A DNA stretch of 64,000 nucleotides from Saxidomus purpurata (Eukaryota; Mollusca; Bivalvia; Venerida; Veneridae): the NCBI GenBank assembly GCA_022818135.1, contig JAFMSR010000008.1, positions 28,876,935 to 28,940,934 of the forward strand, read 5' to 3'. Position numbers and translations under genes: made by a program. Below, piece after piece: positions 10,801-49,670 of the stretch (position 1 is the stretch's first letter; each line of letters starts with the position of its first letter). Below the pieces are notes generated by a model, which was not told the origin of the DNA, ran no database searches, and saw nothing but the letters and a program-made list of their open reading frames with translations.

Positions 10801-13800
10801 CTAAGTATTCAACAAGTTCATTACAAAATTCAAGCATAAATTCATTGGTCAACGTCAACAACTTTGATAATGATGAGATAAATCTACTGCTCAAAATCAA
10901 TTACTTATTATAAAGTTTGTGTTTTAAAAAATGTCTATGGTCAACCAAGTTATAAATGCCATGTGCTGACTGAGTGGGATTGTTTACCCTCGGTACTTAG
11001 CTGTTGCCATATGATCGAGCGTCTTGCCATGCGCCACGATTTAACGAGTATTTACATGTTTATGCCTTGTTAAAATCCTCTTTGTAAAAGATAGACGTAT
11101 CTTATTGTGTTTTAAATTTTTTCACAGATTTTGTTTGATTCAAATTCTCAGAGATATATTACAGAACTGACTATACAGATTAAACAAACAAAAATATGCA
11201 TTTACTATACAGTAGAAACATTTCTTGTGACAGTTTGTTAAATTTTATCATATCACTCGAGGTATTTCAAGAACGGATGATACAGTATGTAATGTCAGTA
11301 ACATCATTTATTTGACATCAAACTAATAACTTAAAATAACAAGAGCTGTCCATAAGACAGCACGCTCGACTATTGTGGGTGTTTGATAATAAAACAAAAC
11401 TTTTATCAGTATAATAGCAAAACAAATTCTGCTAACTATTAAGTATAAACTAGGAAAGTTGAATCATAAAAAAAGTCAAAATCTATAACTATAGATTTAA
11501 TTTTTGGTAAATTAATTGTTTGATACAAAATTTACCCTGAACACTATTGCAAGGTTTGATATAACTACCATAAGTGGTTACTGTGATATGTGCATGATAG
11601 TACCTTGCATGCAAAACTTTACCAAATTTTCAAAGTCAAACAAGGGCCATAATTTCCACTAAATTTAAACAAGAGTTATCTGTCTTGACTGTGTGACACC
11701 TCTTAAGACATTAAAAAAGTTTCAAGTCAATATCATAAGTGGTTACTGAGGTATGTGCATGATAGCACCTAGCAGGCAAAACTTTAACCAAATTTTCAAA
11801 GTCAAACAAGGGCCATAATTAGTACTAAATTTATACAAGAGTTATCTGACTTGATTGTACGACACCCCTAAAGACATTAAAAAAGTTTCAAGTCAATATC
11901 ATAAGTAGTTACTGAGGTATGTACATGATAGTACCTAGCAGGCAAAACTTTAACCAAATTTTCAAAGTCAAACAAGGGCCATAATTAGTACTAAATTTAT
12001 ACAAGAGTTATCTGACTTGACTGTGTGACACCCCTAGAGACATTAACGAAGTTTCAAGTCAATATCATAAGTGGTTACTGAGATATGTGCATGATAGTAC
12101 CTAGCAGGCAAAACTTTAACCAAATTTTCAAAGTCAAACAAGGGCCATAATTTGTACTAAATTTATACAAGAGTTATCTGCCTTGATTGTATGACACCCC
12201 TAAAGACATGAACAAAGTTTCAAGTCAATATTATAAGTGGTTACTGAGATATGTGCATGATAGTACCTAGCAGGCAAAACTTTAACCAAATTTTCAAAGT
12301 CAAACAAGGGCCATAATTAGTACTAAATTTTTTCAAGAGTTATCTGCCTTGATTGTATGACACCCCTAAAGACATGAACAAAGTTTCAAGTCAATATCAT
12401 AAGTGGTTACTGAGATATAAGCATGATAGTACCTAGCAGGCAAAACTTTAACCAAATTTTCAAAGTCAAACAAGGGCCATAATTTGTACTAAATTTTTTC
12501 AAGAGTTATCTGCCTTGATTGTATGACACCCCTAAAGACATGAACAAAGTTTCAAGTCAATATCATAAGTGGTTACTGAGATATGTGCATGATAGTACTT
12601 AGCAGGCAAAACTTTAACCAAAGAAGCAACGCCGACGCCGACGCCGACGCACAAGTGACTGTAATAGCTCTCCATATTCTCCGAATAGTCGAGCTAATAA
12701 TTTGAGGGTTGAATGTGATCCTAATGTAACTGCTTATTTCATATGCACTTACACTTTATTGTAGTTTTACATTCAACACTCATAATGCTCAAACAGTAAG
12801 TATATCAGCGATAGGCGTCATACCAGCAGTGGACAAGATCTAGTTTTTTACCGCAGCATGTTATGTCATTACCTTCTTGTATTTTGCCTCTACACTGTGC
12901 AAGCTGAGCTAGTTCTGTCCATGCCATGGGAAGATTGACATGTTTGCCCACACCACCATCCTTCAATCCTGCTCTCCTCTGAAATATGATAAAGAATCAA
13001 TGACCCTGATAAATTCCGAAAATGGACTTGTCTATCTTTCAGTTAGCTCTAAAAAGATGGGCCAACTAATAATTTCCTGACTGAATAACAAACAGTGCAG
13101 ATCATGCTCAGACCACACAGATATTTAGGCTGATCATGATCTACACTGGTCAGAAAGGTAGAATCACTTGAATCACAGTTGTTACGGGTTAAGTAACTCT
13201 TGATTTACATTTACATTAATAATCAAATAATATCCTGACTAAATATTTGTACAAATTCAAAACTGTATTGCAAAACTCTCTGGGAAGTTTCAGCATCTTT
13301 TTTTCTACTAAAGCTCTATTGAAACAAAGCAGTTTTTTATGGCAGAAACAGATGTTTTTTTAAAACTAGTACATAACATTATTCCATAGCATAAATTTTA
13401 TAATAGTATGAGAGAAATTTACTGCACGAACGCTACTGTGTAACAGCTATCAAATAAGTTACTGTCCTACCTTTGCCCTTTCAAGCATTTTTTGGGCACA
13501 CTGTTCAAGCTTTTCTTTCTCATCAAAATCTTTAGCATTGTTGTAGTCCTGTACAAAATCTTCGGAAACTTCTAATGGATTTCTGAATTATGAAACAAAA
13601 AACACACTTATAAACGATACAGCTTTTGAACAGAACTATATCTAAACTTTCTTAATACTCACTACATGTATATATATTAATTTTCTCGTACATAAGACTT
13701 TTTGGGCACAAGGAAATAACAATTCAATTCACTAGAAAAAATCTATTCTAAGACTATGTTTTCTGAGCTTAATATTCTTATCCAATATTGTCTGTCTGTC

Positions 13801-14680: not shown

Positions 14681-14754
14681 ATATCACAACTAAATTTATG
14701 AAAAGCGGAGAACTGTAAACAGTAATGTAGATCTTACACTAGCCCAACTAACTG

Positions 14755-16603: not shown

Positions 16604-16700
16604 ATAAAGTGACTATCAAACAGAAATATTTAATGATATACTGAGGAATTACACATCATTTTCTGGACTTATCTTTGTGTAAAAGTGCCATTGTCAAAAG

Positions 16701-17618
16701 ATGGATTCACAAAATAATCCAAGAATGGATTGGGAGTCGAGGGACTTACCAAATGCGTTCAAACGCTTCAAAGAACATGCAGAATGCATGTTTGGCGGAC
16801 CACTTGAAAAGAAAACGGAAGAGTCAAAATGTAACTACCTTATGCTGTGGATGGGTGAAAAGGGAAGACAGATATTCTCCACATGGGACATAAGTGCTGA
16901 AGACAGGAAATTACTCAAAACCTACTATGATGGTTTTGCCAACTACTGTGAGCCTAAATCCAATCGGATATACAGTCGCTACAAACTAAAGTCGCAAATT
17001 CAACAGGAAGGAGAACCATTTGAGCAGTTTGTCACAGAACTGAAGCTCTTAGTCAAGGACTGTGGATATCCTGATACAATAAGAGAAGAAATGATTCGTG
17101 ATCATATTGTATTTGGTGTCAATTCACCAAAAATTCGTGAAAAATTGATAAATGAAGGATCAGGACTCACGCTGGAGAAATGTATTGACATTGCTCAGAC
17201 ATACGAATTAAGCCAGAGTCAGGCTAGAGACATAAATAGCCAAACGCAATCCGTAAGCACTGTTGGAAGACGGTCATCACAGAGATCTCAACAGCAGTTT
17301 CAAGAACGAAACCACCAAGGTCAAAATGAACCGAGTGGCAGGAAACCTCGAAAGAAGTACCAAATGAACTATCAAAATGGTCACCAACCTAGACATGACA
17401 GCTATAGTTCTGCGTGTGGAAAATGTGGACATAAACATTCGCAACGCGAAAAGTGCCCTGCTAAAGGGAAAGTTTGTTTATATTGTGGGAAACTCAACCA
17501 TTTTTCATCAGTGTGTAGACAAAAGGAATATAACAACAGAAACGTTCATGAGGTAAACAATTTTGATTCTACACCTGATCTTGATAACCCAGATTCTGAT
17601 TTTTCCCCTTCCCTCTAA
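16701..17618 (+). CDS. gag: Gag of the Gypsy element
   Basis: 305 codons from ATG to TAA. Residues 50-170 resemble the retrotransposon Gag capsid-like domain (YSRYKLKSQIQQEGEPFEQF, VTELKLLVKDCGYPD, IVFGVNSPKIREKLI). A basic Gln/Arg-rich stretch (190-225) follows, then two zinc knuckles: an irregular one at C239/C242/C252 and a canonical C-X2-C-X4-H-X4-C at C259, C262, H267, C272. It would package element RNA into particles. The frame is intact, and the stop codon is followed without frame change by pol. Confidence 0.95.
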   Translation: MDSQNNPRMDWESRDLPNAFKRFKEHAECMFGGPLEKKTEESKCNYLMLWMGEKGRQIFSTWDISAEDRKLLKTYYDGFANYCEPKSNRIYSRYKLKSQIQQEGEPFEQFVTELKLLVKDCGYPDTIREEMIRDHIVFGVNSPKIREKLINEGSGLTLEKCIDIAQTYELSQSQARDINSQTQSVSTVGRRSSQRSQQQFQERNHQGQNEPSGRKPRKKYQMNYQNGHQPRHDSYSSACGKCGHKHSQREKCPAKGKVCLYCGKLNHFSSVCRQKEYNNRNVHEVNNFDSTPDLDNPDSDFSPSL

Positions 17619-20600
17619 AGTGAAGAATTGTATGTTAATACAATTGAACACGACCCTATTTCCAACCAGGCCTTTGCCAAAGTTGTCATCTGTTCAAAAC
17701 CGGTCACATTTAAGATTGACACGGGTGCACAAGTTAATGTCCTCCCAAGGTCATTTCAAACATCTCTGAAGATAACAGGTCCTATTCAAAACACGCACAA
17801 ACGCCTCACTGCATATGATGGGACCCCACTGAAAGTAGATGGCTTCTTAAATCTACCTTGTCAGTACAATGGACAAAATTTTCATGAGGATTTTTACATA
17901 ATAGACACTAACTCAAGCCCAATACTAGGACTGCAGACTTGCCTGAGATTTAATCTCATTAAATTAGTCCTAGCTATGAACTCAACCTCTATTTACACAA
18001 AAGAATCTGTTGTAAATAAATACACAGATGTATTTCATGGAATAGGTCAGTTACCCGGGGAATGTGAAATTCACCTGCGAAATGATGTAACTCCAGTAAT
18101 CCATCCACCTCGTAAAGTTCCCATTGCAATAAGAAATAAATTAAAGACTGAGCTTGACCGAATGGAAAATCAAAACATCATAACAAAGGTCACAGAGCCT
18201 ACAGACTGGGTTAATAGTCTAGTCACGGTTGAAAAAGCCAACGGATCTCTTAGGATATGTTTAGACCCCAAAGATCTGAACAATGCAATCAAAAGGCCTC
18301 ACTATCCAAATAAAACATTAGATGATATCTTGCCTGAACTGTCAAACGCCACAGTGTTTTCCAAATTTGATGCACGTAGTGGTTATTGGTCCATTAAATT
18401 GACAGAACAGTCATCATATTTGACAACGTTCAATACACCCTTCCATAGGTACAGATTTTTGCGTTTGCCCTTTGGCATTTGTAATGCCAATGATCTTTTT
18501 CAGTCAAAAATGGATCAGTGCCTCGAAAACCTCCAAGGTGTTAGGACAATTGTTGATGATATTGTTGTCTATGGCAAAAATCATGAAGAACATGACCGAA
18601 ATCTCGACCAACTCATGATAAGATGTCGAGAAATGGGCATCAAACTAAATCCCGACAAAACAGAAGTAGGCAAATCCGAGATACCATTCTTTGGTCACCT
18701 CCTCACTTCACATGGTTTAAAAATGGACCCTTCAAAGGTCCAGGCAATTCAACAAATGCCTGCACCAACATCCAAGTCAGAACTTCAAACTATATTGGGA
18801 ATGGTTACATACCTACAAAGATTTGCACCTAACCTCTCTCAAATTACAGCGCCATTACGACAGCTTTTGTCTAAAGATGCTGAATTTAGATGGGATGCAC
18901 CCCAGGAGGAAGCCCTACAAAAGGTCAAAAATATTATCACGCAGAGCCCAGGGCCTGTACTTGCTTATTTCGATCCAAATAAGGAAGTTACCTTACAAGT
19001 AGATGCTTCCAAATATGGTCTTGCGGCAGTTCTTATGCAAGATGGTAGGCCAATATCATTTGCATCAAAGTCCCTCACCCCAACTGAGGTCAATTATGCT
19101 CAGATCACCAAAGAGCTATATGCTATCCTATTTGGATGTAAAAGATTCCATCAATACACATATGGCAGAAGTATTACATGTCAAAGTGACCATAAACTGC
19201 TTCTTGCCATATGGAAGAAAGGGCTACACTCAGCACCACTTCGCCTGCAGCGCATGCTTCTACAGCTGCAAAAATATGATATAAAGTTAATATTTATACC
19301 AGGTAAAGACATTCCACTTGCAGATACATTATCTCGCAAATTCTTACCTGACACATACCCAGAGATTGCAGAGGGTTTGGATATCAATGTACATGCTCTC
19401 ATCTCAAGCCTGCCTATAAGCGATCAAAAATTTGAGCTTATTAGGACAGCCACACAATCAGACATACAAATGCAAATGCTGAAACAGGTTATCCTTGAAG
19501 GTTGGCCCAATGACAGAGCCAACTGCCCCATTCAGTTATTAGAATTTTGGAACTTTCGGGACGAACTTTCTGTCATTGATGGTATAATCTTAAAAAGCTC
19601 AAAAATACTCATTCCCAAAGAGCTCAGACCTCTAATGCTTGAAAAGATTCATGACTCACACCTAGGGGTAGAAAAGTGTACACAGCGTGCACGGGAACTA
19701 CTTTTTTGGCCAAATATGCCAGCTGACATTAAGTCAACAGTACTAAAGTGTCCAATTTGCATCGAACACAGGTGCTCAAATGCTAAAGAGCCATTACAGC
19801 CTACAACAGTACCTGATAGACCATGGCAAATCTGTTCAACAGACTTGTTTCACTGGAACAACAGTGATTATATTCTGTTGGTTGATGCATACAGCAAATA
19901 TTTCGAAGTAAGCCAGCTAACAAGTACTAGCTCAAAATCTGTCATTGAAAAGTTGAAAGGTTACTTCAGCAGGCATGGGATTCCAGAGACATTGTATTCA
20001 GATAATGGGCCTTGTTATGCAAGTTTTGAGTTCAAGGATTTCTCTAAACAGTATGACTTCCTGCATGTTACGTCATCCCCAAATCATCAGTCAGGAAATG
20101 GTTTGGCTGAGGTAACAGTGAAAACAATCAAGTCCCTGTTTACAAAAACAAGGCAGGCTGGGAAAGATCCTTATCTAGCACTCCTTGAATATAGAAATGC
20201 CCCATTAGCCTGTGGGAAGTCCCCTTCACAATTATTAATGAGTAGACAGCTCCGGTCAACTCTGCCATTAATTTCCCAGAAACTTGAGCCTCATGTTCCC
20301 AATAAACAAATCATCAAAGAGAAAATGGTTAGGTCAAAGGAAAAATCAAAGTTTCATTATGACCAATCTACTAAACCCCTGAAACCCTTAGAAACTGGAG
20401 AGGCAGTAAGGATAAGGCAAGGCAAACAATGGTTACCAGCCATAGTTAAACAAAAAGAGCATGATAGATCATATCTTGTGGCAACTGAAAATGGAGCCAT
20501 TTACAGAAGAAATAGGCGTCACCTCCTCAAATCAAATGAACAGTCCTTTCAAGAACTAGATCATAATCTTATGTCACATACTCCTCCCATAGAGGACCAA

Positions 20601-20816
20601 CACAACTTCAATAACTCTGTGCCTAGTCCCGTGGTAAACAAATGGCCTGAAGGGTTAAAGACTCCAATTCAGACATCGACAACCCAGAATCCAACTATAT
20701 CCCCACAGAAGCCGAACAATCGCCTGTCAAAACCTACTCACCTTTATCCCAGAGCCCTGCCTCCCCTACATATACAACAAGATCAGGTCGTAGTGTTAAA
20801 CAGCCTCAAAGACTGA
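17619..20816 (+). CDS. pol: Pol polyprotein (protease, RT, RNase H, integrase) of the Gypsy element
   Basis: Open frame of about 1,065 codons, in the same frame as gag and starting right after its TAA. No ATG lies near the start; the first Met is past the protease. Residues counted from the TTG at 17628: protease DTGA 31-34; reverse transcriptase with FGICNAND (282-289) and catalytic VDD at 309-311 in place of the usual Y-x-DD; RNase H D459, E496, D521, D566; integrase zinc finger H675, H678, C708, C711; integrase D739, D792, E828 (D,D35E spacing); then a basic C-terminal region. No stop or frameshift inside. Expression needs readthrough of the stop or another route. Confidence 0.96.
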   Translation, partial: SEELYVNTIEHDPISNQAFAKVVICSKPVTFKIDTGAQVNVLPRSFQTSLKITGPIQNTHKRLTAYDGTPLKVDGFLNLPCQYNGQNFHEDFYIIDTNSSPILGLQTCLRFNLIKLVLAMNSTSIYTKESVVNKYTDVFHGIGQLPGECEIHLRNDVTPVIHPPRKVPIAIRNKLKTELDRMENQNIITKVTEPTDWVNSLVTVEKANGSLRICLDPKDLNNAIKRPHYPNKTLDDILPELSNATVFSKFDARSGYWSIKLTEQSSYLTTFNTPFHRYRFLRLPFGICNANDLFQSKMDQCLENLQGVRTIVDDIVVYGKNHEEHDRNLDQLMIRCREMGIKLNPDKTEVGKSEIPFFGHLLTSHGLKMDPSKVQAIQQMPAPTSKSELQTILGMVTYLQRFAPNLSQITAPLRQLLSKDAEFRWDAPQEEALQKVKNIITQSPGPVLAYFDPNKEVTLQVDASKYGLAAVLMQDGRPISFASKSLTPTEVNYAQITKELYAILFGCKRFHQYTYGRSITCQSDHKLLLAIWKKGLHSAPLRLQRMLLQLQKYDIKLIFIPGKDIPLADTLSRKFLPDTYPEIAEGLDINVHALISSLPISDQKFELIRTATQSDIQMQMLKQVILEGWPNDRANCPIQLLEFWNFRDELSVIDGIILKSSKILIPKELRPLMLEKIHDSHLGVEKCTQRARELLFWPNMPADIKSTVLKCPICIEHRCSNAKEPLQPTTVPDRPWQICSTDLFHWNNSDYILLVDAYSKYFEVSQLTSTSSKSVIEKLKGYFSRHGIPETLYSDNGPCYASFEFKDFSKQYDFLHVTSSPNHQSGNGLAEVTVKTIKSLFTKTRQAGKDPYLALLEYRNAPLACGKSPSQLLMSRQLRSTLPLISQKLEPHVPNKQIIKEKMVRSKEKSKFHYDQSTKPLKPLETGEAVRIRQGKQWLPAIVKQKEHDRSYLVATENGAIYRRNRRHLLKSNEQSFQELDHNLMSHTPPIEDQHNFNNSVPSPVVNKWPEGLKTPIQTSTTQNPTISPQKPNNRLSKPTHLYPRALPPLHIQQDQVVVLNSLKD

Positions 20817-21228
20817 CATATTAATACATTATTAATATTGATGCTAGATTGATTATTATATGCATATAATACACTGTATTATGATTATAATTGCCGTAAA
20901 GCATTTAACATTGAACATTTGATGTGCAGATTCATTACAATTATTTGGGATGTAATACATGTGTTATCATGGAAAGGTGCATTGCAGGTGAAATTGGAGC
21001 AATAAATAATCAATCAAACTGACATTACTCAGTGATGGTGTGAGAACACAACTTCTCTTACAAACATTATAACCGAGAGTAACACCATCAGAGTTCCAGA
21101 GTTGCATGAACAGTTTATAATAAAAGACTATCCCTGCTAATTAGCAGCTGAGAAAATCAGATAACCCAGAAATGAACTCTAGTGAATGAATCTCTCAATT
21201 CATTGATCAATATCTATTTCAATTTTCT

Positions 21229-21241
21229 AAAGAAAGGGAGA
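21229..21241 (+). other. polypurine tract of the Gypsy element
   Basis: AAAGAAAGGGAGA lies directly before the 3' LTR, the expected site for plus-strand DNA priming. The stretch 20817-21228 between pol and this tract holds no open frame worth noting. Confidence 0.85.
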
Positions 21242-21430
21242 TGTTACATTATTGCCAGTGTTTAATCCAAGCTGATTCGCTACCTGTATTTATACTGCTG
21301 ATAAGCAACGCCCACTGACCATTATATGAACTCACATTGATTTCTATCTGTGGGTCACTTTTCTTCCAGAATAAATCTAGTAAACATGAACGCTCACTTG
21401 CTCTTTCATTAAACCCATAACATCAAAACA
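21242..21430 (+). repeat. 3' LTR of the Gypsy element
   Basis: 189 bases, read by eye as identical to the 5' LTR. It is followed by the second ATGCC target duplication at 21431-21435. Confidence 0.96.
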
Positions 21431-22735
21431 ATGCCCAACATTGAAATTGACCCCAACAGCATCCTGAAATTACTCCAAAACCTAAAAGTGGATAAGGCTG
21501 CTGGCCCAGATATGATTAAGCCCATTGTCTTGAAGGAGCTCTGCCATGAGATCCTTGACAAAGTATCACTAATCTTTAAAAGATCACTTAACACTGGTCA
21601 ACTCCCATCCAATTTGACGAAGGCAGATGTTGCTCAACTATTCAAAAAAGATGATACTAGTGACCTTGCTAACTACAGACCCGTATCGCTAACTTGTATT
21701 CTATGTAAACTCCAAGAACACATAATTGCATCTAGCCTATCCATGCATCTCTCAAAACACAACATACACTATGAGCTGCAACATGGGTGCCTTGAAAGAT
21801 TGTCCTGTAAGACTCAGTTCATTGAGCTAGTTGAAGAAATATCCAAAAACCTTTCCTCTGGTAAACAGACCGACCTTGTCCTACTTGATTTTAGTAAAGC
21901 CTTCGACAAAGTCAACCATCTAAAATTATTACTTAAACTCCTGGAGCATGGTGTCTCCAGTCAAACTGTGTCATGGATCCAGTCCTTTTTAATAGGTAGA
22001 TCTCAGTCAGTAGTGGTTAACGGTTGCACGTCTGATCAAGTCCCTGTTACATCTGGGGTCCCCCAGGGCTCTGTCCTAGGACCTCTGTTGTTCCTACTCA
22101 ATATAAATGATCTCCCTGACACATTTACCTCCCATGTGCGGCTTTTTGCTGATGATACTGCCGTTTACCTTGCAGTTACTTGCCTTTCTGATTGTCAAAG
22201 GTTACAAAATGATCTCTCTAAGCTAGAAACATGGGAAAAACTTAGGGACATGGAATTTAACCCTAGTAAATGCCAGGTCCTCCATATTACACGTAGCAGA
22301 AAACCCATCCAGTTCCCATATAAGCTCCATGGTCAAACACTCTCACCAGTTAAGGATGCAAAATACCTTGGTTTAGACATCAGCCAAGATCTCAGCTGGA
22401 ATACACACATCTCAAGAATAACAACAAATGCAAACAGAACACTAGGCTTTCTCAAACGTAACATCAAAACAAAACATGAAAATATCAAATCACTCTCTTA
22501 CAAAACATTAGTCAGACCACAACTAGAGTATGCATCATCTGTATGGTCACCACACACCCAGGTTAATATTCACAAGCTGGAGATGGTCCAGCGACGCACA
22601 ATCAGATGGGTAAAAAATGATTATTCCAGAGATACCAGCGTGATCTGCAGAACACCCTTAGATGGAGCACCCTTGAGAACAGGCGTCAAGCCTCCAAATT
22701 GGTTATGTTTTACAAAATATACTACAATCTTGTAG
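21431..22735 (+). pseudogene. 3' part of the interrupted LINE: reverse transcriptase
   Basis: 434 codons with DKAAGPDMIKPIVL, ANYRPVSLTC, catalytic LLDFSKAFDKVNH, the GVPQGSVLGPLLFLLNINDL motif and FADDT (FADD at residues 239-242 of this frame). This is a Jockey/CR1-like non-LTR reverse transcriptase. Near 22640 the frame shifts: the normal continuation (TLENRRQASKLVMFYKIYYN) is read in another frame, and the C-terminal LESFKQAVAQINY lies after a further break. With the Gypsy insertion upstream, the copy is dead. Confidence 0.93.
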
Positions 22736-26923: not shown

Positions 26924-27379
26924 ATTAATGCAATGTGTCCAACTTTTAAAAAAATGTATTAAATCAAATGTTAGAAATTAAACTGTTTATTGACTTAGAA
27001 TTGTTTGAATTCCAGTTACCAGCAATGATCATTCTGGTTTTCCCTTCTGATGCAATCAAATTTCACAATTTTCAAGTAATGTCTATATTTTGCATATCTT
27101 GTATATCTTATTTTGTATTTGTCAATAACAGTAATAACTTGGTAAAACGTATTTCTTGTATGTTTTTAAAGCATTCACTGTGTTTTGAGTGTCATTCTTA
27201 ACCATAAACCAATGTGACCATTTAAATCAGTGTCATTTTTCAAGTGAAGAATGTGACTCTGTGGACAAAAGACCTTAATACTCTTTTATTTCTTTTGAGC
27301 TTTAAAAACAATAGATTCTGTATTTTCTTTGAAAGATGCCATGAATAAATGATAAATGTGCAAAAACAAAGGCTTTGCA
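26924..27379 (+). other. LYRM7 3' flank, no further gene seen
   Basis: AT-rich sequence, presumably 3' UTR then intergenic. A 77-codon open frame at 26968-27201 has no recognisable features. Confidence 0.5.
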
Positions 27380-27830
27380 TGCATATATATTTGTACAAAA
27401 GGGCAATAACTCTATAAATGTGAAATATAGGTATGTAACCTGTCTATTGTAGCTATTATAGGGTATACCAACTGGAGTTTCAGTGTAGCACCACCATGAA
27501 ATATTACACTTTCTAACTGAACATTTTGTACAAAAGGGCAATAACTCTATAAAATGTAAAACAATGTTATTTAATTTGTCATTATGATAATTATCATGCG
27601 TGATTCCTATGTAGCTTTTTGTTAAGTACAACAGGGCAATAACTCTATAAAATGTAAAACAACTTTATATAATTTGTCATTATGATTATTCTTGTGTCAA
27701 TGAACATGTTGATTAGGTTGAAGCTGAGTAGCACAAGTCAAGTAATACTTTACTTTGTGTAAGATGGGACAGGAAGGATGGACAGTACAACATGCATGAT
27801 TCCTATATAGCCCCCAGGGGGATATAAGAA
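27380..27830 (+). repeat. degenerate tandem-core dispersed repeat
   Basis: Three copies of GTACAAAAGGGCAATAACTC / TATAAAATGTAAAACAA starting near 27393, 27528 and 27625, followed by a possible tip ATATAGCCCCCAGGGGGATAT near 27808. Similar in design to the other tandem-core repeats here, with different sequence. Confidence 0.6.
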
Positions 27831-37800: not shown

Positions 37801-40800
37801 TTAGAAAGTTCATTATAAGGCCAAGTCATTTTTACAAAAAGATCCTGTAAGGAATATAATTCATTTTAAGGACAGTTTATTCCAATAATTTTCAACAAAA
37901 TCATACTATGTAACCGGTAATGGCTTTTGTGTACATGAGCCTTAATTGGCCTTTGGTTTCTCATCATTGAAAATTATTCATCTTCAACTTTGATTATCAA
38001 CAAAATTTGAATATGTTAATATTTCATTTGTGCCTTTTTGTACAAATTTTAGAAAATCTAAAACTAGCAAGCTTTTTGGGTTAGGCACAAGTTAAGTGCC
38101 TTAGAGAAAGATAGCTAGTAGTTAGCATCTTATAAACTGTGTGCACAAAAATAATGTGATGGTTTAAGGTCAGTCAGTGTACAAATGTTTTGATCTTTTA
38201 TAATTTTTTTTAAAAAATGTAGAGATATTTGTAGGCCTCTGTAATCTCGATCCTTGCTTTTGCTGTTTTTTTTGTCATCCCCTGAATACTCCATCTGAAT
38301 GTGCTTTATGGTAAGTCTGTCGTCAAGTTGGCTTTGCCAAGCAGGCTTCCTAGGTTAGGCACACATTTAATATCTTGGTAACAGGTTTTAAACTGAGATA
38401 TACCCAGTAGGCTGTCCAGTATATTTATTTTCCAGTATCTTAGTGCTTTGAAGAGAGAAAGCAAGTGGTTGAGATTATATATAATAGTCAAATGGCAAGA
38501 TAATTTCATTGTTTTAGAAACTACAGCATTTATGCCATTTAAATACTCCTGTTAGGACAATTTTAGGCTAATCATTTTTAACAAAAGCTTCACATTAACC
38601 AGTAGGATCATTTAAAGGACTGTTTCGGCCAATCATTTTTGACAAAACTTTCTGTGAAGACAAAACCTTGGTTAAGATAAATTTCCTTTAAGAACCATTT
38701 TGGCCAATCATTTTTGACCAAAATTTCTGCTAAGCTGCAAGTTTGTTTCATTATAAAGACTAACCTATAAACTGAATAACAAAGTGTTTTCATAAAAATA
38801 GGATATAATATGTGCTTGGAAGAAGTTATTCTGTGTAAAAATATGTTTAAATGTAGGCATTTTATGTAAGTGTACTTAGAACAGTTCCTTTTACTTCAAT
38901 ATCAGTTCAGAATTTTATGCATTTCATTTGTACAATGTAGTCAGTAACTAGGCCTTAACACTAATTTGTGACTAAATGGGTTTCCTGCGTAATGTTTATT
39001 ACATATTTTTGAGATGGCCAACACAAATGGTAAAGCCGTTACATCCCCTTAACTTCATTGTAAGGATTGTTCATGCAACTTCTTTTTGACAAAAACTTCT
39101 CATAAGGTATAAGGTTCATTTTAAGGGACTGTTCTGACTTATTATTTTTGACAAAGACTTCATGTAGTTTAGAAAGTTCATTATAAGGCCAAGTCATTTT
39201 TACAAAAAGATCCTGTAAGGAATATAATTCATTTTAAGGACAGTTTATTCCAATAATTTTCAACAAAATCATACTATGTCACAGGTAATGGCTTTTGTGT
39301 ACATGAGCCTTAATTGGCCTTTGGTTTCTCATCATTGAAAATTATTCATCTTCAACTTTGATTATCAACAAAATTTGAATATGTTAATATTTCATTTGTG
39401 CCTTTTTGTACAAATTTTAGAAAATCTAAAACTAGCAAGCTTTTTGGGTTAGGCACAAGTTAAGTGCCTTAGAGAAAGATAGCTAGTGGTTAGCATCTTA
39501 TAAACTGTGTGCACAAAAATAATGTGATGGTTTTAGGTCAGTCAGTGTACAAATGTTTTGATCTTTTATAATTTTTTTAAAAAAATGTAGAGATATTTGT
39601 AGGCCTCTGTAATCTCGATCCTTGCTTTTGCTGTTTTTTTTGTCATCCCCTGAATACTCCATCTGAATGTGCTTTATGGTAAGTCTGTTGTCAAGTGGGC
39701 TATGCCAAGCAGGCTTCCTAGGTTAGGCACACATTTAATATCTTGGTAACAGGTTTTAAACTGAGATATACCCAGTAGGCTGTCCAGTATATTTATTTTC
39801 CAGTATCTTAGTGCTTTGAAGAGAGAAAGCAAGTGGTTGAGATTATATATAATAGTCAAATGGCAAGATAATTTCATTGTTTTAGAAACTACAGCATTTA
39901 TGCCATTTGAATACTCCTGTTAGGATAATTTTAGGCCAATCATTTTTAACAAAAGCTTCACATTAACCAGTAGATTCATTTAGAGGACTGTTTCGGCCAA
40001 TCATTTTTGACAAAAATTTCTGTCAAGACAAGACATTGGTTAAGAACAATTTTCTTTAAGAACCATTTTGGCCAATCATTTTTGACCAAAATTTCTGCTA
40101 AGCTGCAAATTTGTTTCATTATAAAGACTGACCTAAAAATTGATAAACAAAGTGTTTTCATAAAAAAAGGATATAATATGTGCTTGGAAGAAGTTATTCT
40201 GTGTAAAAATATGTTTAAAAGTAGGCATTTTATGTAAGTGTACTTAGAACAGTTCCTTTTACTTCAATATCAGTTCAGAATTTTATGCATTTCATTTGTA
40301 CAATGTAGTCAGTAGGCCTTAACACTAATTTGTGACTAAATGGGTTTCCTGCGTAATGTTTATTACATATTTTTGAGATGGCCAACACAAATGGTAAAGC
40401 CGTTACATCCCCTTAACTTCATTGTAAGGATTGTTCATGCAACTTCTTTTTGACAAAAACTTCTCATAAGGTATAAGGTTCATTTTAAGGGACTGTTCTG
40501 ACTTATTATTTTTGACAAAGACTTCATGTAGTTTAGAAAGTTCATTATAAGGCCAAGTCATTTTTACAAAAAGATCCTGTAAGGAATATAATTCATTTTA
40601 AGGACAGTTTATTCCAATAATTTTCAACAAAATCATACTATGTAACCGGTAATGGCTTTTGTGTACATGAGCCTTAATTGGCCTTTGGTTTCTCATCATT
40701 GAAAATTATTCATCTTCAACTTTGATTATCAACAAAATTTGAATATGTTAATATTTCATTTGTGCCTTTTTGTACAAATTTTAGAAAATCTAAAACTAGC

Positions 40801-43800
40801 AAGCTTTTTGGGTTAGGCACAAGTTAAGTGCCTTAGAGAAAGATAGCTAGTAGTTACCATCTTATAAACTGTGTGCACAAAAATAATGTGATGGTTTTAG
40901 GTCAGTCAGTGTACAAATGTTTTGATCTTTTATAATTTTTTTAAAAAAATGTAGAGATATTTGTAGGCCTCTGTAATCTCGATCCTTGCTTTTGCTGTTT
41001 TTTTTGTCATCCCCTGAATACTCCATCTGACTGTGCTTTATGGTAAGTCTGTCGTCAAGTTGGCTTTGCCAAGCAGGCTTCCTAGGTTAGGCACACATTT
41101 AATATCTTGGTAACAGGTTTTAAACTGAGATATACCCAGTAGGCTGTCCAGTATATTTATTTTCCAGTATCTTAGTGCTTTGAAGAGAGAAAGCAAGTGG
41201 TTGAGTTTATATATAATAGTCAAATGGCAAGATAATTTCATTGTTTTAGAAACTACAGCATTTATGCCATTTAAATACTCCTGTTAGGACAATTTTAGGC
41301 TAATCATTTTTAACAAAAGCTTCACATTAACCAGTAGGATCATTTAAAGGACTGTTTCGGCCAATCATTTTTGACAAAACTTTCTGTGAAGACAAAACCT
41401 TGGTTAAGATAAATTTCCTTTAAGAACCATTTTGGCCAATCATTTTTGACCAAAATTTCTGCTAAGCTGCAAGTTTGTTTCATTATAAGGACTGACCTAA
41501 AAATTGATAAACAAAGTGTTTTCATAAAAATAGGATATAATATGTGCTTGGAAGAAGTTATTCTGTCTAAAAATATGTTTAAAAGTAGGCATTTTATGTA
41601 AGTGTACTTAAAACAGTTCCTTTTACTTCAATATCAGTTCAGTATTTTATGCATTTCATTTGTACAATGTAGTCAGTAACTAGGCCTTAACACTAATTTG
41701 TGACTAAATGGGTTTCCTGCTTAATGTTTATTACATATTTTTGAGATGGCCAACACAAATGGTAAAGCCGTTACATCCCCTTAACTTCATTGTAAGGATT
41801 GTTCATGCAACTTATTTTTGACAAAAACTTCTTATAGGGTATAAGGTTCATTTTAAGGGACTGATCTGACTTATTGTTTTTGACAAAGACTTCATGTAGT
41901 TTAGAAAGTTCATAATAAGGCCACGTCATTTTTAGCTCGACTATTCGAAGAATAAGGAGACTATTGCACTCGCCCCAGTGTCGGCGTCGGCGTCTGCGTT
42001 GGTTAAAGTTTTTCATAAAGTCAAATATCTTGAATACTATCAAAGGTATTGACTTGAAACTCAAACTATATGTTTACCATCAACATCTTCACCTGAGGAA
42101 ACAATCCCCATAACTCTGTTTTGATTTTTGACAGATTTATGCCCCTTTTTAACTTAGAATTTTTGGTTAAAGTTTTTTATAAATTCAAGTATCTTGAATA
42201 CTATCAAAGGTATTGACTTGAAACTCAAAGTATGTGTCTACCATCAACATCTTCGCCTGAAGAAACAATCCCCATAACTCTGTTTTGATTTTTGACAGAT
42301 TTATGCCCCTTTTTGAATTAGAATTTTTGGTTACATTTTTTTATAAAGTCAAATATCTATAGGTATTGACTTGAAACTCAAACTATATGTTTACCATCAA
42401 CATTTACACCAGAGGAAACAATCCCCATAACTCTGTTTTGATTTTTGACAGATTTATGCTTCTTTTTACCTAAGAATTTTTGATAAAAGATTTTATAAAG
42501 GCAAATATTTTGAATACTTTCAAAGGTATTGACTTGAAACTCAAATTATGTGTCCACCATCAACATCTTCACCTGAGGAAACAATCCCCATAACTCTGTT
42601 TTGATTTTTGTTAGATTTATGCCCCTTTTTAACTTAGAATTTTAGTTAAAGATTTTTATAAAGTCAATTCTTGAATACTATCAAACGTTTTGACTTGAAA
42701 CTTAAAATGTATGTTTACTATCAACATCTTCACCAATGTTTTTGATTTTTGACATATTTATGCTCCTTTTTAACTGAGAATTTTGTCACAGTTTTTACCA
42801 GACATTATTAGAAATACTCGAAATGGCTTACTTTTGAAGTGTCATAGAATAATTATGCAGCATGCAGCGGGCATGCTTTTTTAATTTTAAACATATTAAT
42901 TTTGAAACGTTACAAAGTTATTCATGATCAAATATACAAGGTCATGTATTTCTTTGAAATTATCCCCCCCCCCTTCTCCCCCCAGTTGGCTTACAGAATC
43001 CAGAGTAAGGCAACGCATGTATTGTACATTTACATAGGTCTTTGAACAAGTTTCATATCTTTGACCTTAATTCTGATAGACAATTACACAAAACACCAGG
43101 TCCTGTTCTTAGACAAAAACAACATTTTACCGACAAGCTTTCGAATAGTCGAGCGTGCTGTCATGAGACAGCTCTTGTTACAAAAGTATCCTGTAAGGAA
43201 TATAATTCATTTTAAGGACAGTTTAATCCAATAATTTTCAACAAAATCATACTATGTAACCAGTAATGGCTTTTGTGTACATGAGCCTTAATTGGCCTTT
43301 GGTTTCTCATCATTGAAAATTATTTATCTTCAACTTTGATTAGCAACAAAATTTGAATATGTTAATATTTCATTTGTGCCTTTTTGTACAAATATTAGAA
43401 AATCTGAAACTAGCAAGCTTTTTGGGTTAGGCACAAGTTAAGTGCCTTAGAGAAAGATAGCTAGTGGTTAGCATCTTATGAACTATGTGTACAAATGTTT
43501 TGATCTTTTGTAAAAAAATTTAAAAAATGTAGAGATATTGGTAGATCTGTAATCTCGATCCTGCTTTTGGTATTTTGTTTGTCATCCCTGAATACTCCAT
43601 CTGAATGTGCTTTATGGTAAGTCTGTCTTCAAGTTGGCTATGCCAAGCAGGCTACCTAGGTTAGGCACAAATTTAATATCTTTGTTACAGGTTTTAAACG
43701 GAGATATACCCAGTAGGCTGTCCAGCATATTTATTTTCCAGTATCTTAGTGCTTTGAAGAGAGAAAGCAAGTGGTTGAGATTATATATAATAGTCAAATG

Positions 43801-44260
43801 GCAAGATAATTTCATTGTTTCAGAAATGCCATTTGAATACTCCTGTTAGGACAATTTTAGGCCAATCATTTTTAACAAAAGTTTCACATTAACCAGTAGG
43901 ATCATTTAGAGGACTGTTTCGGCCAATCATTTTTGACAAAAATTTCTGTCAAGACAAAACCTTGGTTAAGAGAAATTTCCTTTAAGCACCATTTTGGCCA
44001 ATAATTTTTTACAAAAATTTCTGTCAAGATGCAAGTTTGTTTGATTATAAGGACTGATCTAAAAACAGATTAAGGCAATCATTTGAACAAACTTTGTTAA
44101 AGAAAAGATCTAATTTATACTTTAAAGTAGTAATTCCTTCTAAAAAGATGTTTAAAATAAGCATTTTATGTATGTGTACTCAGAACAGTTCCATTTACTT
44201 AAATATCAGTTCAGAATTTTATGTACATTTGTATTTCATTTGTACAATGTAGCCAGTAAG
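34900..44260 (+). repeat. satellite array, ~1,367 bp monomers, interrupted by a mobile element
   Basis: The marker GCCAAGCAGGCTTCCTAGG (with small changes) recurs at about 35.60, 36.97, 38.34, 39.71, 41.07 and 43.64 kb. Spacings are 1,364-1,368 bases, and 1,328 for the last after removing the 1,246 bp insertion. The middle monomers are nearly identical and the outer ones more diverged. Each monomer also contains several ~60-70 bp subrepeats around GGCCAATCATTTTTGACAAA. Short frames of 61-80 codons recur in every monomer on both strands; they look like by-products of repetition. Confidence 0.96.
41934..43179 (+). mobile_element. Helentron-like tandem-core element, family 1, copy c, inside the satellite
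   Basis: 1,246 bp. Starts AGCTCGACTATTCGAAGAAT with a GTCGGCGTCGGCGTC run, has about five core units (the first ones 164 bases apart) with ATCTTGAATACTATCAAAGG and CAATCCCCATAACTCTGTTT, and ends TCGAATAGTCGAGCGTGCTG, hairpin GCTGTC-ATGA-GACAGC, TCTTGTT. The surrounding monomers show the empty site as GTCATTTTT | ACAAAAAG; nothing is duplicated beyond possibly ambiguous Ts. Confidence 0.88.
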
Positions 44261-44339
44261 TAGTTCTTAACACTGGATGGTTTTTCTTCATTTATTTTGT
44301 TAAATATTTCTAGTATGTTAATAAATATATAACCAAAAT

Positions 44340-45025
44340 TATTGGACCTCTACCAAGATTCTTCAAATTATGAACCCCGGGTCAAAATTGACCGGTGCGG
44401 GTGGTCACTTAGTTTTGCATAGGCTTTATATAGGAAAAACTTTAAAAATCTTCTCTGAAACCACAAGGCCTAGAGCTTAGATATTTGGCAAGTAGCAATG
44501 TCTAGTGGGCCTTAGTGGACCTCTACCAAGATTGTACAAATTATGACCCGGGGGTCAAAATTGACCCTGTAGGGGGAGTCACTTAGTTTTACATAGGCTT
44601 ATATAGGAAAAACTTTAAAAATCTTCTTCTCTGAAACCACAAGGCCTAGAGCTTAGATATTTGGCATGTAGCATTGTCTAGTGGACCTTTACTAAGATTG
44701 TTCAAATTATGACACCCAGGTCAACTTGACCCTGTAGAGGGAGTCACTTAGTTTTACATAGGCTTATATATATTTAAATCTTCTTCTCTGAAACCACAAG
44801 GCCTAGAGCTTAGATATTTGGCATGTAGCATTGCCTAGTAGACCTCTTCAAAGTTTGTTCAAATTATGCCCATGGGGTCAAAATTGACCTTGCCCGGGGG
44901 GGTATCATTTGTTTTACAAAGGCGTATAGGGGGGGGGACTTGTTTGGTATATAACATTGTCTAGTGATCTTTTAAGTTGACTTGTACCAAGGTGAGCGAT
45001 ATAGGGCCATCTTGGCCCTCCTGTT
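44340..45025 (+). mobile_element. Helentron-like tandem-core element, family 2, copy a
   Basis: About four units of 155-170 bases with GGACCTCTACCAAGATT, GGGTCAAAATTGACC, CACTTAGTTTTACATAGGC and CACAAGGCCTAGAGCTTAGA. It ends AAGGTGAGCGATATAGGGCC with hairpin AGGGCCA-TCT-TGGCCCT and then CCTGTT. The left tip is not visible. Confidence 0.8.
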
Positions 45026-46302
45026 TTGTTTTATTTTCTTTTCAGGTAAATTGAAAAAATTCCTGAAGATGCGAATACTCATCTGTACCATTCACCAATG
45101 AATTCCAGTTTTCAATCATGAACCTGCCACGCCTTTCAAAGAAACATGCACAACATTCCTTTGAGAAAGTAAGCTATTTAAACAATGAACAATTTGTCCA
45201 GCCTGCTGGCAAATAGTCAACATAGTAACTGTTCTCGGTTTTGGAGTTTACTGTGTCTGCATCTGCCCAGATGAGCTTATCCAGGTTGTAACTTTGTCAT
45301 GAATTGAAAAATGGTTCACCACATGGGGGCAGTGTGTTGTGTGCAAGACACAGATTTGTAGCTGAAAGGTCAAGGTCAGACTTAGAGAATAAAGTAAAAA
45401 TAGACACATGAGACGTTGTCTAGACTGTAACTTCCTCATACAGAGAATGATTTTGAATTGACTTGGTACAGTGGACAGATTGTTCACAGAACTCTGTTCT
45501 AATGCACATTATTAGCTATATTAACAAGAATTATGCAAATATCATGTATTGTAGATGATCATCTTGTTACATCACCTGATTGTCATCTTTCATCTGTCTG
45601 TCTGTTCCCAATTGTCCCATGGTGGTATACATGCAGCTGTGCAATGTCAGCTCAGAATCCTTTAATGCATGAAGCTGTTACAGTTGGCACATGGTCTTGT
45701 GTGTGTATTTTTGTCGAGCCCGCTTGCGGTGAGCTCAATATAGTTCTCCAAATGGTGGTTTGGTGTATGTGCATCCGTGCGTATGTTTGAGTTTAGTTTG
45801 TCCGGGCTGTAACTTATCCATGGATCCCACTTGTCTGGGGTACAACATGCATGTTTCATCCAATATTTAGGTGTATTTTGACCTATCTCTACTTGGTAAG
45901 AAGTTAGTCTTTGTGACAGCTGGCGGGCTTGACATGTTGCACATGGGAATCTAGTTTACCTTTAAACTTGAAGTGTGACATTGTCCTTGAGCTGCACTAC
46001 AGACCTGTTTGAGAGAGTTGCATGTCATATTTTTCCTATTAAAGACAATTGATCCAGGTTAGTAATGGCGAGTAAGACCTTATGTGGCACATATTTCTGT
46101 TGCCGATATTCACATAAACTTGACTTCATGTATTATCCTTACATACAGTTTGAATCAATGGTTGTGCTGTAGTAACCTATCCATTGGTGTCTTTACCAGG
46201 TGTATGCTCAGTGTCTTACTCTTGGAAGTGTTGTGGTGTAGGTCAAGAACGACCCACTTTCAGAACGTACTATCACCAGAACGGCTCTGACTTTTTATTT
46301 TT
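45026..46302. other. degenerate dispersed repeats, no gene
   Basis: Repeat-like pieces occur, such as CTTATCCAGGTTGTAACTTTG (45279), GAAAGGTCAAGGTCAGACTTA (45365), the tip-like TCGAGCCCGCTTGCGGTGAGC (45714) and TTGTCCGGGCTGTAACTTATC (45798). They have the style of tandem-core repeats but form no clean array. A splice-bounded segment at 45048-45166 has stops in all three frames. Confidence 0.45.
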
Positions 46303-46927
46303 AGCTCATCTGGCTTCGTCAGGGTGAGCTTTTCTGATGGATGATTGTCCGTCGTCCGTCAACATTTGATTCAAATGACATCTTCTCTGAAACCACTAGG
46401 TGAATGTTGATGAAACTATGCAGGGATGTTCCTTGCATGAAGCTCTACCAAACTTGTTCAAAGAATTCCATTCCATGCAGAACTCTGGTTGCTAAGGTAA
46501 CAAATAGGAAAAACTTTAAAAATCTTCCTCTCTGAAACCACAAGGCCTAGAGCTTAGATATTTGGCATTTAGCATTGTCTAGTGGACCTCTACCAAGATT
46601 GTTCAAATTATGCCTCTGGGATCAAAATTGACCTTGCCCAGGGGTCACTTAGTTTTACATAGGCTTATATAGGAAAAGCTTTTAAAATCTTTTCTCTGAC
46701 ACCACAAGGCCTAGAGCTTAGATATTTGGCATGTAGCATTGCCTAGTAGACCTCAAATTATGCCCCTTAGATCAAAATTGGCCTTTCCTAGGGGGGTCAT
46801 TTGTTTTACAAAGATGTATAAATTATAGGAAAACCTATTTGGTATATAACATTTTCTGGTGATCTTCCACCAGGCAAGTAGACTTGTACCAAGGTGAGTG
46901 ATATAGGGCCATCTTGGCCCTCTTGTT
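46303..46927 (+). mobile_element. Helentron-like tandem-core element, family 2, copy b (complete)
   Basis: 625 bp. Left tip AGCTCATCTGGCTTCGTCAG; two and a half core units with CACAAGGCCTAGAGCTTAGA; right end GATATAGGGCCATCTTGGCC, a hairpin, then CTCTTGTT. Flanks are TTATTTTT and AAAGTGGA with no duplication. The AGCTC start and TCTTGTT end are shared with family 1. Confidence 0.82.
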
Positions 46928-47600
46928 AAAGTGGAAGTTATGTTGATATTAAGAGAGAAATTTTAGAAGGTTGGATTATACAATCATAAGTATTTTCTAG
47001 GAAGAACTAAACCTTCTGCATAACATGATATCAAGTTATTATTCACAGTACTAGCTTTATGGATGAAATAGAAGACATTCTGTGAAAAAGTAAAGTAAGA
47101 AAAGGTATCACTTATCTTTATTCTGATCAATGTGTCTTAATATTCATGCAACAAAAATGATTAAAGTTCACAAGAATCCCCGAAAACTCTGCAAACTCAA
47201 TATTAGCTCTAGTAAATAATATCTAGAAGTTGGCCATTCTGGACTTCAAAGTGGGCTGGTCTTGACTGGGTCATTTTAGTAGTGGTCCGTTCTGGTACTA
47301 AACCATTGTTGTTACTCTCTAGTAAAATCATATCTCTCTCTGCAGGACAGTTTACACCTTCAGACTACAGCAGTATTGAAGTTCAAAATAAGAAGTAATG
47401 TGCAAAGTGTGAGTTGACATTGTGTGAGCCCTTAATGAGTTTGCTGTCAATGAAATTTTAACTAAGCTTCACCTTACTAGGTAAGTCCCATTTAATTTCC
47501 TAATTGCATTCCCTCAGTATCACCTTTTTAAATGGGCCTCAAAGAGACTTTAAAGACAATCCTTTAAAAGTCATTAGGAAAGCAACTATTTCACATAATA
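46928..47600. other. intergenic; one possible terminal exon
   Basis: Nothing firm. At 47346 an acceptor-like CTCTGCAG precedes a short frame (QFTPSDYSSIEVQNKK then TAA). No partner exon is recognised, so it is not called as a gene. Confidence 0.3.
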
Positions 47601-48190
47601 CTAGGGATGTCAACGATTAATCGGTTAACCAGTTAACTGACCGAACTAACGATTAACCGGTTACGAAATTGGTTACCGGTTATAAAAAAAAGTATATGTA
47701 TATGACAAAAAGAGAGAAAATTGCATTATAAAATGAATATATGTATTGAAAATAACTTGCTTTTTTATTTCTATCACCGACATTTAACACGTTGCAACGC
47801 GGTGCTTCGAGATAGTAAGGTGTGATAAGTGTCAATATGTTAATTGGACACGCTCATGACAACAGAGTTTGTTTTGACAAGGCATAGCTTCGTTGACTTT
47901 AGAGTAATTGTTAACTTGTGATACAAAAGAAAAGTGCGAATTTTGAAGCAAGTCGCTGTTTACGCTAATTAACCTATTAAACTAAAATTTATCGAGTAGT
48001 AACAATTATTATTAATTATGAAGAGCCATTACATTGGTGGAAAGAGCGTGCTTGTAAATATCCCAGGATTGCCAAAGTTGCTAAGGCACTGTTAGCCGTG
48101 CCAGAAGCATTTGTGCCATCAGAGCGAATATTCTCCGGTGCTGGACTACTAGTTTCTAAACCACGAACTCGGCTCGCTAGTGTGAAATAG
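47601..48190 (+). pseudogene. hAT transposon remnant: left terminal repeat and C-terminal dimerisation domain
   Basis: 47601-47630 is a hAT-type terminal sequence (TAGGGATGTCAACGATTAAT CGGTTAACC). At 48023-48190 the frame EEPLHWWKERACKYPRIAKV, then VPSERIFSGAGLLVSKPRTR LAS and a stop, is the hATC dimerisation domain (PL.WWK, VPSER.FS.AG motifs). The rest of the transposase is deleted and no right terminal repeat is seen before the next element at 48478. Probably ZBED-like (inference). Confidence 0.85.
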
Positions 48191-48477
48191 TAGTCAACAT
48201 CATTTTCTTAAACTAGAATAAATTCAACTTGTGAAATGTCACGGGAATGACTGATGATGCTTATTTGATGAACTTGCATAAGTTACTTGTCATGTGTAAC
48301 ACTCAACAAAGAAATATTATTCCGTAAATGATAGAAATAATCTCAGTAATAACATAAGTTTGTTACAATTATTTCGTTTTAGGCTTACTGTGCCAGTGAT
48401 GTCACTGTTTTATGTCTTTGTAAATAATATTTATATGCATTTACTTACACATATGTATTTGATTTAGTTTCGTTGTT

Positions 48478-49670
48478 AGCTGGACTATTCGAAGAATAAG
48501 GAGGCTATTGCACTCGCCCCGGCGTCGGCATTGGCGTCTGCGTTGGTTAAAGTTTTTTATAAAGTCAAATATCTTGAATACTTTCAAAGATATTGACTTG
48601 AAACTCAAACCATATGTTTACCATCAACATCTACACCTGAGGAAACAATCCCCATAACTCTGTTTTGATTTTTGATAGATTTATGCCCCTTTTTAACTTA
48701 GAATTTTTGGTTAAAGTTTTTTATAAATTCAAATATCTTGAATACTATCAAAGGTATTGACTTGAAACTCAAACTATATGTTTACCATCAACATCTACAC
48801 CTGAGGAAACAATCCCCATAACTCTGTTTTGATTTTTGATAGATTTATGCCCCTTTTTAACTTACAATTTTTTGTTAAAGATTTTTATAAATTCAAATAT
48901 CTTGAATACTATCAAAGGTATTGACTTGAAACTCAAAATATATGTTTACCATCAATATTAACACCAGAAGAAACAATTCCTATAACTCTGTTTTGATTTT
49001 TGACAGATTTATGGCCCTTTTTAACTTAGAATTTTTGGTAAAAGATTTTATAAAGTCAAATATTTTGAATTCTATCAAAGGTATTGAATTGAAACTCAAA
49101 TTATGTGTCCACCATTAACATCTCCACTTGAGAAAACAAACCCAATTGCTCTGTTTTGTATTTTGTTAGATTTACGCCCCTTTTTAACTTAGAAATTTTA
49201 GTTAAAGATTTTTATAGAGTCAAATATATATCTTGAATACTATCAAACGTATTGACTTGAAACTTAAAATGTATGTTTACTATCAACATCTTCACCAATG
49301 TTTTTGATTTTTGACATATTTATGCCCCTTTTTAACTGAGAATTTTGTCACAGTTTTTACCAGACTATTATATGGAAATACTCGAAATGGCTTACTTTTG
49401 AAATGTTATAGAATAATTTTTCAGCATGCAGTGGTCATGCTTTTTCAATTTTATACACATCAATTTTGAAACGTTACAAAGTCATTCATGATCAAATATA
49501 CAAGGTCATGTATTTCTTTGAAATTATCCCCCCCCTCCTCCCCGCAATTGGCTTACAGAATCCAGAGTAAGGCTTTACACGTAACGTACATTTACAAAGG
49601 TCTTTGAACTAGTTTCATATATTAATTCTTACAGACTGTTACACAATAAACCTGTTCTTAGACAAAAAAA
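48478..49670 (+). mobile_element. Helentron-like tandem-core element, family 1, copy d, right end lost
   Basis: Starts AGCTGGACTATTCGAAGAAT and runs parallel to 41934-43179 over core and 3' flank (CATGCAGTGGTCATGC, CAAGGTCATGTATTTCTTTG) up to CCTGTTCTTAGACAAAAA. There the terminal hairpin segment is missing and unrelated sequence begins. Confidence 0.85.

Follow-up and report, generated by a model that had tools for sequence, protein, structure and literature searches.

HINE-type elements with different tandem cores in Saxidomus purpurata share a hairpin-plus-tail 3' end resembling that of a Rep-encoding element

A 64,000-nucleotide stretch of the genome of the bivalve Saxidomus purpurata (assembly GCA_022818135.1, 1,134,997,084 bases, on which all genome-wide counts were made; contig JAFMSR010000008.1, here C8; C8:28876935-28940934, hereafter the window) contains elements that are almost certainly HINEs, the non-autonomous, tandem-repeat-carrying relatives of Helentron-type rolling-circle transposons. 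On balance, we further favour the view that a 3' hairpin followed by CTCTWGTT would be the common cleavage signal of one Helentron-like machinery moving many HINE families (F1, F2, F4 and F8 with the tail CTCTTGTT, F3 with the tail CTCTAGTT), with hairpins that differ from family to family and 5' ends that do so too, except between F1 and F2; the Rep-encoding family R1 and its kin would be its current drivers. Tandem cores had been predicted in the window from its letters alone, and a tandem-repeat scan recovered them at the named places as units of 146-167 bp:

11569-12622: tandem core, 166 bp
29031-30608: tandem cores, 146 bp then 167 bp
41999-42734: tandem core, 164 bp
44343-44889: tandem core, 157 bp
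48543-49296: tandem core, 164 bp

Two families, F1 (F1a and F1b) and F2, were delimited in the window. Subterminal inverted repeats (subTIRs) were scored as inverted matches between 5' and 3' stretches against 500 shuffles, and hairpins by DNA folding energy against 200 shuffles:

41934-43179, plus strand: complete HINE F1b, 1246 bp, with AGCTC 5' end, GTCGGC microsatellite, five B-core monomers, 3' subTIR, hairpin and CTCTTGTT
41935-41949, plus strand: 5' subTIR of this copy, a perfect 15-bp inverted match to the 3' subTIR (score 15, 0/500 shuffles)
43140-43154, minus strand: 3' subTIR of this copy, 25-39 nt ahead of the 3' end
43157-43172, plus strand: 3' hairpin of this copy, folding at -9.9 kcal/mol (z -2.7)
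11338-12695, minus strand: complete HINE F1a, with an A core of six monomers and a partial one and an 11-bp subTIR
48478-49677, plus strand: 3'-truncated HINE F1b, starting AGCTGG, its 3' end lost near 49677, without 3' subTIR, hairpin or tail
46303-46927, plus strand: complete HINE F2, CvA-like, with a C core and the hairpin GGGCCATCTTGGCCC followed by TCTTGTT
44340-45025, plus strand: HINE F2, 5'-truncated into its array, with the tail CTCCTGTT

The complete elements share one build. AGCTC stands after T's and is followed by a short inverted repeat, then by a microsatellite rich in GTC and by the array of core units; the 3' region closes with the hairpin and CTCTTGTT. The combination of microsatellite and tandem core is that of bivalve HINEs. 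The 5' stretch GCTCGACTATTCGAA of F1 returns inverted 25-39 nt before the 3' end, with 15/15 matching positions in 41934-43179 and 11/11 at the corresponding place in 11338-12695 (0/500 shuffles in each case); the pair of subTIRs seen in HINEs, the second inverted and close to the 3' end, was thus found in F1 and not in F2. The palindrome expected near a HINE 3' end was found both by the hairpin-and-tail scan and by folding, which placed a 3' hairpin in all five 3' ends tested (z -1.0 to -2.8). In F1 its stem reads GCTGTC..GACAGC, and in the F1b copy the final C of the hairpin at 43157-43172 doubles as the first base of the tail (43172-43179). The F2 hairpin has the form GGGCCATC.TGGCCC, and hairpin and tail together occur 5,241 + 5,181 = 10,422 times in the genome (control 0). 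The original prediction, that complete copies begin with AGCTC and end in a hairpin and CTCTTGTT, holds, but of the six named copies only 11338-12695, 41934-43179 and 46303-46927 are complete (3/6), those at 44340, 48478 and 30206 being incomplete.

Two neighbours of these elements may be mentioned. Exon-like open stretches occur at 1640-1811 and 12868-12990 (minus strand); the HINE 11338-12695 is near the second of these and may be intronic. Immediately upstream of the HINE at 48478, the stretch 47600-48460 was labelled by eye as a hAT-like transposon remnant.

The F1b element 41934-43179 interrupts a tandem array that serves as its empty-site reference:

35095-44274, no strand assigned: tandem array of 1367-bp units, hosting the HINE insertion 41934-43179

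The array holds about six units, and pieces of its middle units are 94-100% alike. When the flanks of the insertion were joined, they aligned without gaps to four uninterrupted units (229, 229, 227 and 229 of 239 positions), and with gaps to a fifth, more diverged one. The filled site reads GTCATTTTT / AGCTC...CTCTTGTT / ACAAAA and the empty site GTCATTTTTACAAAA. The element is therefore inserted in a T-run without target duplication, as judged from one insertion and four empty units; because of the T's at the site, the cut may lie at T/A or at T/T. T-rich or TT insertion without target duplication is the pattern that the text of the respective reports gives for Helentrons (PMC4067079) and for the Cg_HINEs of the oyster (PMC7492417), whereas the target site duplication of a terminal inverted repeat (TIR) transposon, or of the miniature elements derived from one (MITEs), was absent at this insertion.

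To evaluate the shared 3' end, a perfect stem of at least 6 bp was required directly before the tail. Such sites occur 4 times in the window as against 7 in total over 200 dinucleotide shuffles; the tail CTCTTGTT alone occurs 8 times (mean 3.5 per shuffle). Since three of the four sites belong to F1, the independent agreement is that of F1 with F2. Genome-wide, CTCTTGTT was counted 53,913 + 53,726 times on the two strands, 2.4 times the reversed pattern used as control (22,018 + 22,091). For the 3' end, the proposition that the termini are shared beyond chance is borne out by both counts. Twenty stretches on C1, taken from listed CTCTTGTT sites, contain 36 occurrences of it, 15 of which were assigned by eye to the 3' ends of HINEs of F1, F2, F4, F8 or variants. 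F4 has the hairpin TCACTTGTGAGTGA and the 5' end TTTATGCCCCC, F8 the hairpin CCATGTGTAAAATGG and the 5' end TTTATCCCCCCGCCG. A hairpin followed by CTCTTGTT is thus present in at least four families (F1, F2, F4 and F8), with different hairpins. By contrast, the AGCTC 5' end was seen in F1 and F2 only, and F4 and F8 begin differently with the same 3' tail, which makes the 3' tail the wider feature. F3 adds a related tail: its copy L018 (1263 to ~2300), not selected by tail, ends in a hairpin and AGCTCTAGTT, with the tail CTCTAGTT. The F3 5' palindrome is TTATACCCC, and the 3' end of another copy (L006, minus strand) has decayed. The idea of one machinery recognising short termini therefore survives in part: rolling-circle elements with different cores do share a short 3' end, but AGCTC is not a general 5' signal.

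Three further CTCTTGTT in the window, at 1174, 54764 and 55665 (minus strand), were rejected as element ends for want of a perfect 6-bp hairpin; the one at 1174 satisfied a looser hairpin rule and was judged a chance match. A generic 5'-end scan of the window gave 6 matches, compared to 1-5 per shuffle in 6 shuffles, and viral and prokaryote sequence collections gave 0 matches. Literature searches for CTCTTGTT together with Helitron, and for GGCCCTCTTGTT, found no explicit statement of the shared tail in the texts covered, figures and supplements lying outside them.

In order to identify a possible autonomous partner, the genome was surveyed with the PF14214 profile of the Helitron Rep domain, with 14 genomes as controls. 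The profile gave 95 matches, some of which are pieces of one gene, and 0 in the controls. The 30 loci detailed fall into six multi-copy families, R1-R6, and six singles. Copies within R1 and within R4 are 99.7-100% identical, as a result of either recent activity or duplication in the assembly. In R4 and R6, the Rep frame is closely followed by a PF03372 endonuclease domain (E 3.7e-14 and 5e-9). Downstream of the Rep frame, the R1 copies on C3 (L051) and C17 (L059) agree at 128/128 of the bases compared as far as GCTTTTTTACAAAAGC-ATC-CTCTAGTT and cease to resemble each other immediately after it; the R1 3' end thus consists of a hairpin and CTCTAGTT, the tail also found in F3. This 3' end occurs at 46 places (27 + 19, at most 2 mismatches; 44 exact; control 0). 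At all four R1 Rep loci (C3, C9, C17 and C1659) it follows the start of the Rep match by 4948 bp. Two further ends of this type, at C6:33906764 and C8:13339760, are found 4.5-4.7 kb past partial Rep matches. For about 40 others no Rep match is listed at the corresponding position; these may be broken or non-autonomous copies. A search for an autonomous Rep element with the ends of the window's families had been proposed: R1 does end in a hairpin and CTCTAGTT, but in the pieces fetched no Rep element was found that has exactly CTCTTGTT as its end or AGCTC as its start. Being of the same build, the R1 3' end supports a putative 3' signal shared with the HINEs.

Some other features of the Rep loci were observed. 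In L051, repeats about 320 bp apart lie, by eye, between the Rep frame and the 3' end. Copies of R4 remain identical past L053, and beyond it an exon was read by eye as RPA-like; a small inverted-repeat element, TACAGGGTTGTCATTAA...TTAATGACAACCCTGTA, was likewise noted by eye at L053 1199-1367, downstream of an R4 endonuclease frame. Several Rep genes of R3 and R6 (5' parts of L034, L043, L045 and L050) open with ~95-bp or similar tandem repeats, apparently in frame. In L050, the first 165 bases in the Rep direction, which immediately precede the R6 Rep gene, are the 5' end of an F2-type HINE that faces the other way.

Taken together, these data suggest that Rep/helicase proteins from such elements would recognise the 3' hairpin and tail together with the subTIRs, and that rolling-circle replication would copy one strand and insert it in T-rich DNA. 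As only the ends would be recognised, different satellite-like cores could be carried along. For the most part, the cores would be inherited with the whole element and change in their number of monomers, rare illegitimate joins such as that at 30200-30206 yielding hybrids.

Several observations weigh against the HINE assignment or the common signal. The empty site was obtained for one insertion only. The subTIR of the complete F2 copy scores no better than shuffles (230/500). Among the hairpins, that of F1a only modestly exceeds shuffles, 15/200 of which fold as well, and that of the hybrid described below is the weakest of the five folded (35/200). Some CTCTTGTT sit within core monomers, so that the genome-wide excess overstates the number of element ends. 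The F4 and F8 tails stem from C1 loci selected by that very tail, which reveal the families able to carry it but not its frequency. The R1 tail is one base off the CTCTTGTT of F1, F2, F4 and F8, with the hairpin 3 nt further from the tail, and R1 is known here by its 3' end, its 5' end lying outside the sequence seen. No endonuclease was found in the parts of R1 fetched and no helicase domain in the Rep-locus pieces scanned, and in the copies read of R4 and R6 the endonuclease either occupies a different frame from Rep or is separated from the Rep frame. Finally, no CTCTTGTT occurs in the downstream stretches of R2, R4 and R6, within fetched pieces of 0.8-1.5 kb that did not reach the element ends.

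The copy named at 30206 is the right half of a hybrid and lacks AGCTC:

28946-30978, plus strand: hybrid HINE, an F3-type 5' end and 146-bp D core joined to a family-1 A core and F1 3' end
30200-30206, plus strand: hybrid junction, a 7-nt overlap, TTGAAAA, common to both parents

At the junction, the two cores are about 19 nt out of register (34 versus 15 nt from the GCCCTT-type box). An ordinary F3 copy carries its own 3' end, unlike this one. The exact 25-base joint occurs at two places in the genome, in the window and 280 kb away in inverted orientation. The second site has the same 5' flank as the window copy (95.5% in an alignment of 425 bases, of which 265 belong to the flank), and is for that reason regarded as a duplicate of the locus; its 3' end is absent from the expected place and was not located. 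The 7-nt overlap at an out-of-register joint, together with the presence of outer ends of both kinds, would suit a mobile element formed by template switching during rolling-circle replication. Independent insertions would be expected of a mobile element and none was found, the only other junction lying beside the same 5' flank with its 3' end unlocated, which makes this origin unlikely, if conceivable. A hybrid that spreads is accordingly unsupported; the structure is accounted for by a deletion in place that joined two adjacent HINEs, or by a single insertion of a hybrid.

Three further repeats of the window belong with, or resemble, HINEs:

6440-6937, minus strand: F4-type HINE with its 5' end near 6937 (TTTATGCCCCC...GGCATA), a GTC microsatellite and an E core
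27302-27828, minus strand: HINE-like remnant with a 5' palindrome, a GTCC-rich stretch and irregular repeats spaced 135 and 98
45715-45960, plus strand: possible HINE 5'-end remnant, a GAGC...GAGCTC inverted repeat seen by eye, which 41/200 shuffles fold equally well

No 3' end was seen for the first, which adjoins an N run (5940-6439), and none was found for the second, whose 5' fold is no better than shuffles (119/200). A unit of ~160 bp had been proposed as common to the repeats at 6440, 27380 and 28942. Those at 6440 (F4-type, minus strand) and 28942 (F3) are indeed HINE arrays and that at 27380 resembles a HINE remnant, but the spacings are 139 and 170 at 6440 and 135 and 98 at 27380, where a regular 160-bp array was rejected, and the units at 28942 are of 146/136 bp. 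Nucleosome-scale phasing had been put forward as a possible cause of the common length and has no support in these data; across families, core units range from 146 to 178 bp. The text of the oyster report gives 160-180 bp for 51.41% of 51,024 monomers (PMC7492417); a unit of ~160 bp is usual for the HINE class.

The relationships between cores were determined from monomer consensus sequences, with rotation allowed and 300 shuffled monomers as control. Cores A and B are related (241 against 101 ± 16, z 8.9, 0/300), as are B and D (185 against 87 ± 15, 0/300). The pairs D-G, D-E and A-G also gave 0/300, B-G 1, A-D 5 and A-E 15; scores in opposite orientation (B-D 2, D-G 3, A-B 11 and D-E 16 of 300) call for caution with the weaker pairs. 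Core C of F2 shows no relation to the others beyond chance (at best 22/300); a separate test on tandem pieces gave A-C 1/100, a value inflated by tandem repetition. Thus the two core types predicted for family 1 are distinct yet homologous, and the view of them as unrelated was rejected, while the predicted lack of relation between the cores of families 1 and 2 holds in the consensus test, that inflated A-C score aside.

The original prediction held that the core cargo is exchanged or made anew. The isolation of core C in the consensus test and the existence of one hybrid of two HINEs speak for this, as do the middle B monomers, which do not hold their position between copies: in the five-monomer arrays of the 41934 and 48478 copies, monomers 2-4 of the former match its own monomer 1 as well as or better than their counterparts. 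By contrast, the last monomers of the two arrays are 0.972 identical to each other and at most 0.907 to others in their own array, and the first monomers are 0.963 identical. Since first and last monomers match across arrays, at least the array edges would be inherited with the element; the end monomers point to arrays copied whole, the middle ones do not. Moreover, the A-B and B-D relationships are in the same orientation, and core type tracks the terminus in the copies seen: A occurs with one F1 variant, in the copy at 11338 and in L019, and B with another, in the copy at 41934, in L001 and, by its 5' end, in 48478. A and B are thus related cores that have diverged, each linked to a terminus variant of its own, and were not swapped. 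The hybrid junction itself exists only here and 280 kb away, beside the shared 5' flank. Exchange or new amplification of cores at each transposition is therefore quite unlikely, and descent with the element is preferred.

That these elements are MITEs of an ordinary cut-and-paste TIR DNA transposon, the older label for pearl elements, is scarcely tenable: they do have subterminal inverted repeats, and the text of one report classes CvA as MITE-like (PMC5874043), but the empty site shows no target duplication, the inverted repeat on the 3' side lies inside the element, with a hairpin and a fixed tail after it, and the same build recurs at the 3' end of a Rep-encoding element.

As HINEs, the elements closely resemble Cg_HINE of Crassostrea gigas as described in the text of PMC7492417, sharing a 5' subTIR and inverted repeat, a GTCY/GTCC microsatellite, a tandem core of 140-180 bp, a 3' subTIR and palindrome, and insertion in T-rich DNA without target duplication. 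Also described there are unrelated cores between related flanks (group 2) and, in some elements, two arrays. Compared to that account, the present families are others. An empty site inside the window, a 3' tail explicitly shared and a hybrid with its junction are added here, as is the similarity in 3' end to a Rep element, a connection beyond the reach of the oyster study; the texts of PMC7492417 and PMC7992393 state that no autonomous element could be related to the oyster HINEs. F2 resembles the pearl/CvA elements of oysters and scallops, whose core is of 156 bp in the text of PMC5874043 compared to 157 bp here. Its 3' end aligns with the published scallop CvA primer at a score of 27 (maximum 24 among 60 shuffled primers), and the likeness to CvA non-core sequence is that of this primer match, not of a full CvA. 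With the Helentrons and HINEs/DINE-1 described in PMC4067079, the elements share subTIRs, a 3' palindrome and a TT/T-rich target, and this genome has Rep genes, with endonuclease frames beside two Rep families. In the present data, the comparison of R1 with the HINEs concerns its 3' end, the end that was seen, rather than both ends.

Other features of the window are as follows. The region 16683-22735 holds a gag-like frame and a pol frame with reverse transcriptase, RNase H and integrase domains, labelled Gypsy-like, with another reverse transcriptase frame, separate from these, after them. Relatives of the gag number 58, and among those that carry an organism name the best is in Mytilus edulis. 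A large inverted repeat lies at 23892-24856 (262-nt arms, 88% complementary, 441 nt apart). Two similar stretches at 54255-54390 and 56000-56135 (minus strand), with a tRNA-like box of the GGTTCGAG type, are by eye probably one family of short interspersed elements, and a weak tRNA match (30.2 bits) was obtained at 8824-8896, minus strand.

HINEs spread satellite-like DNA through bivalve genomes. If the proposal of a common 3' signal is true, the families described here would form a cross-mobilised system dispersing satellite DNA, with R1 as a named candidate partner. The presence of near-identical Rep-element copies with the same kind of hairpin and tail makes the question of that partner directly testable.

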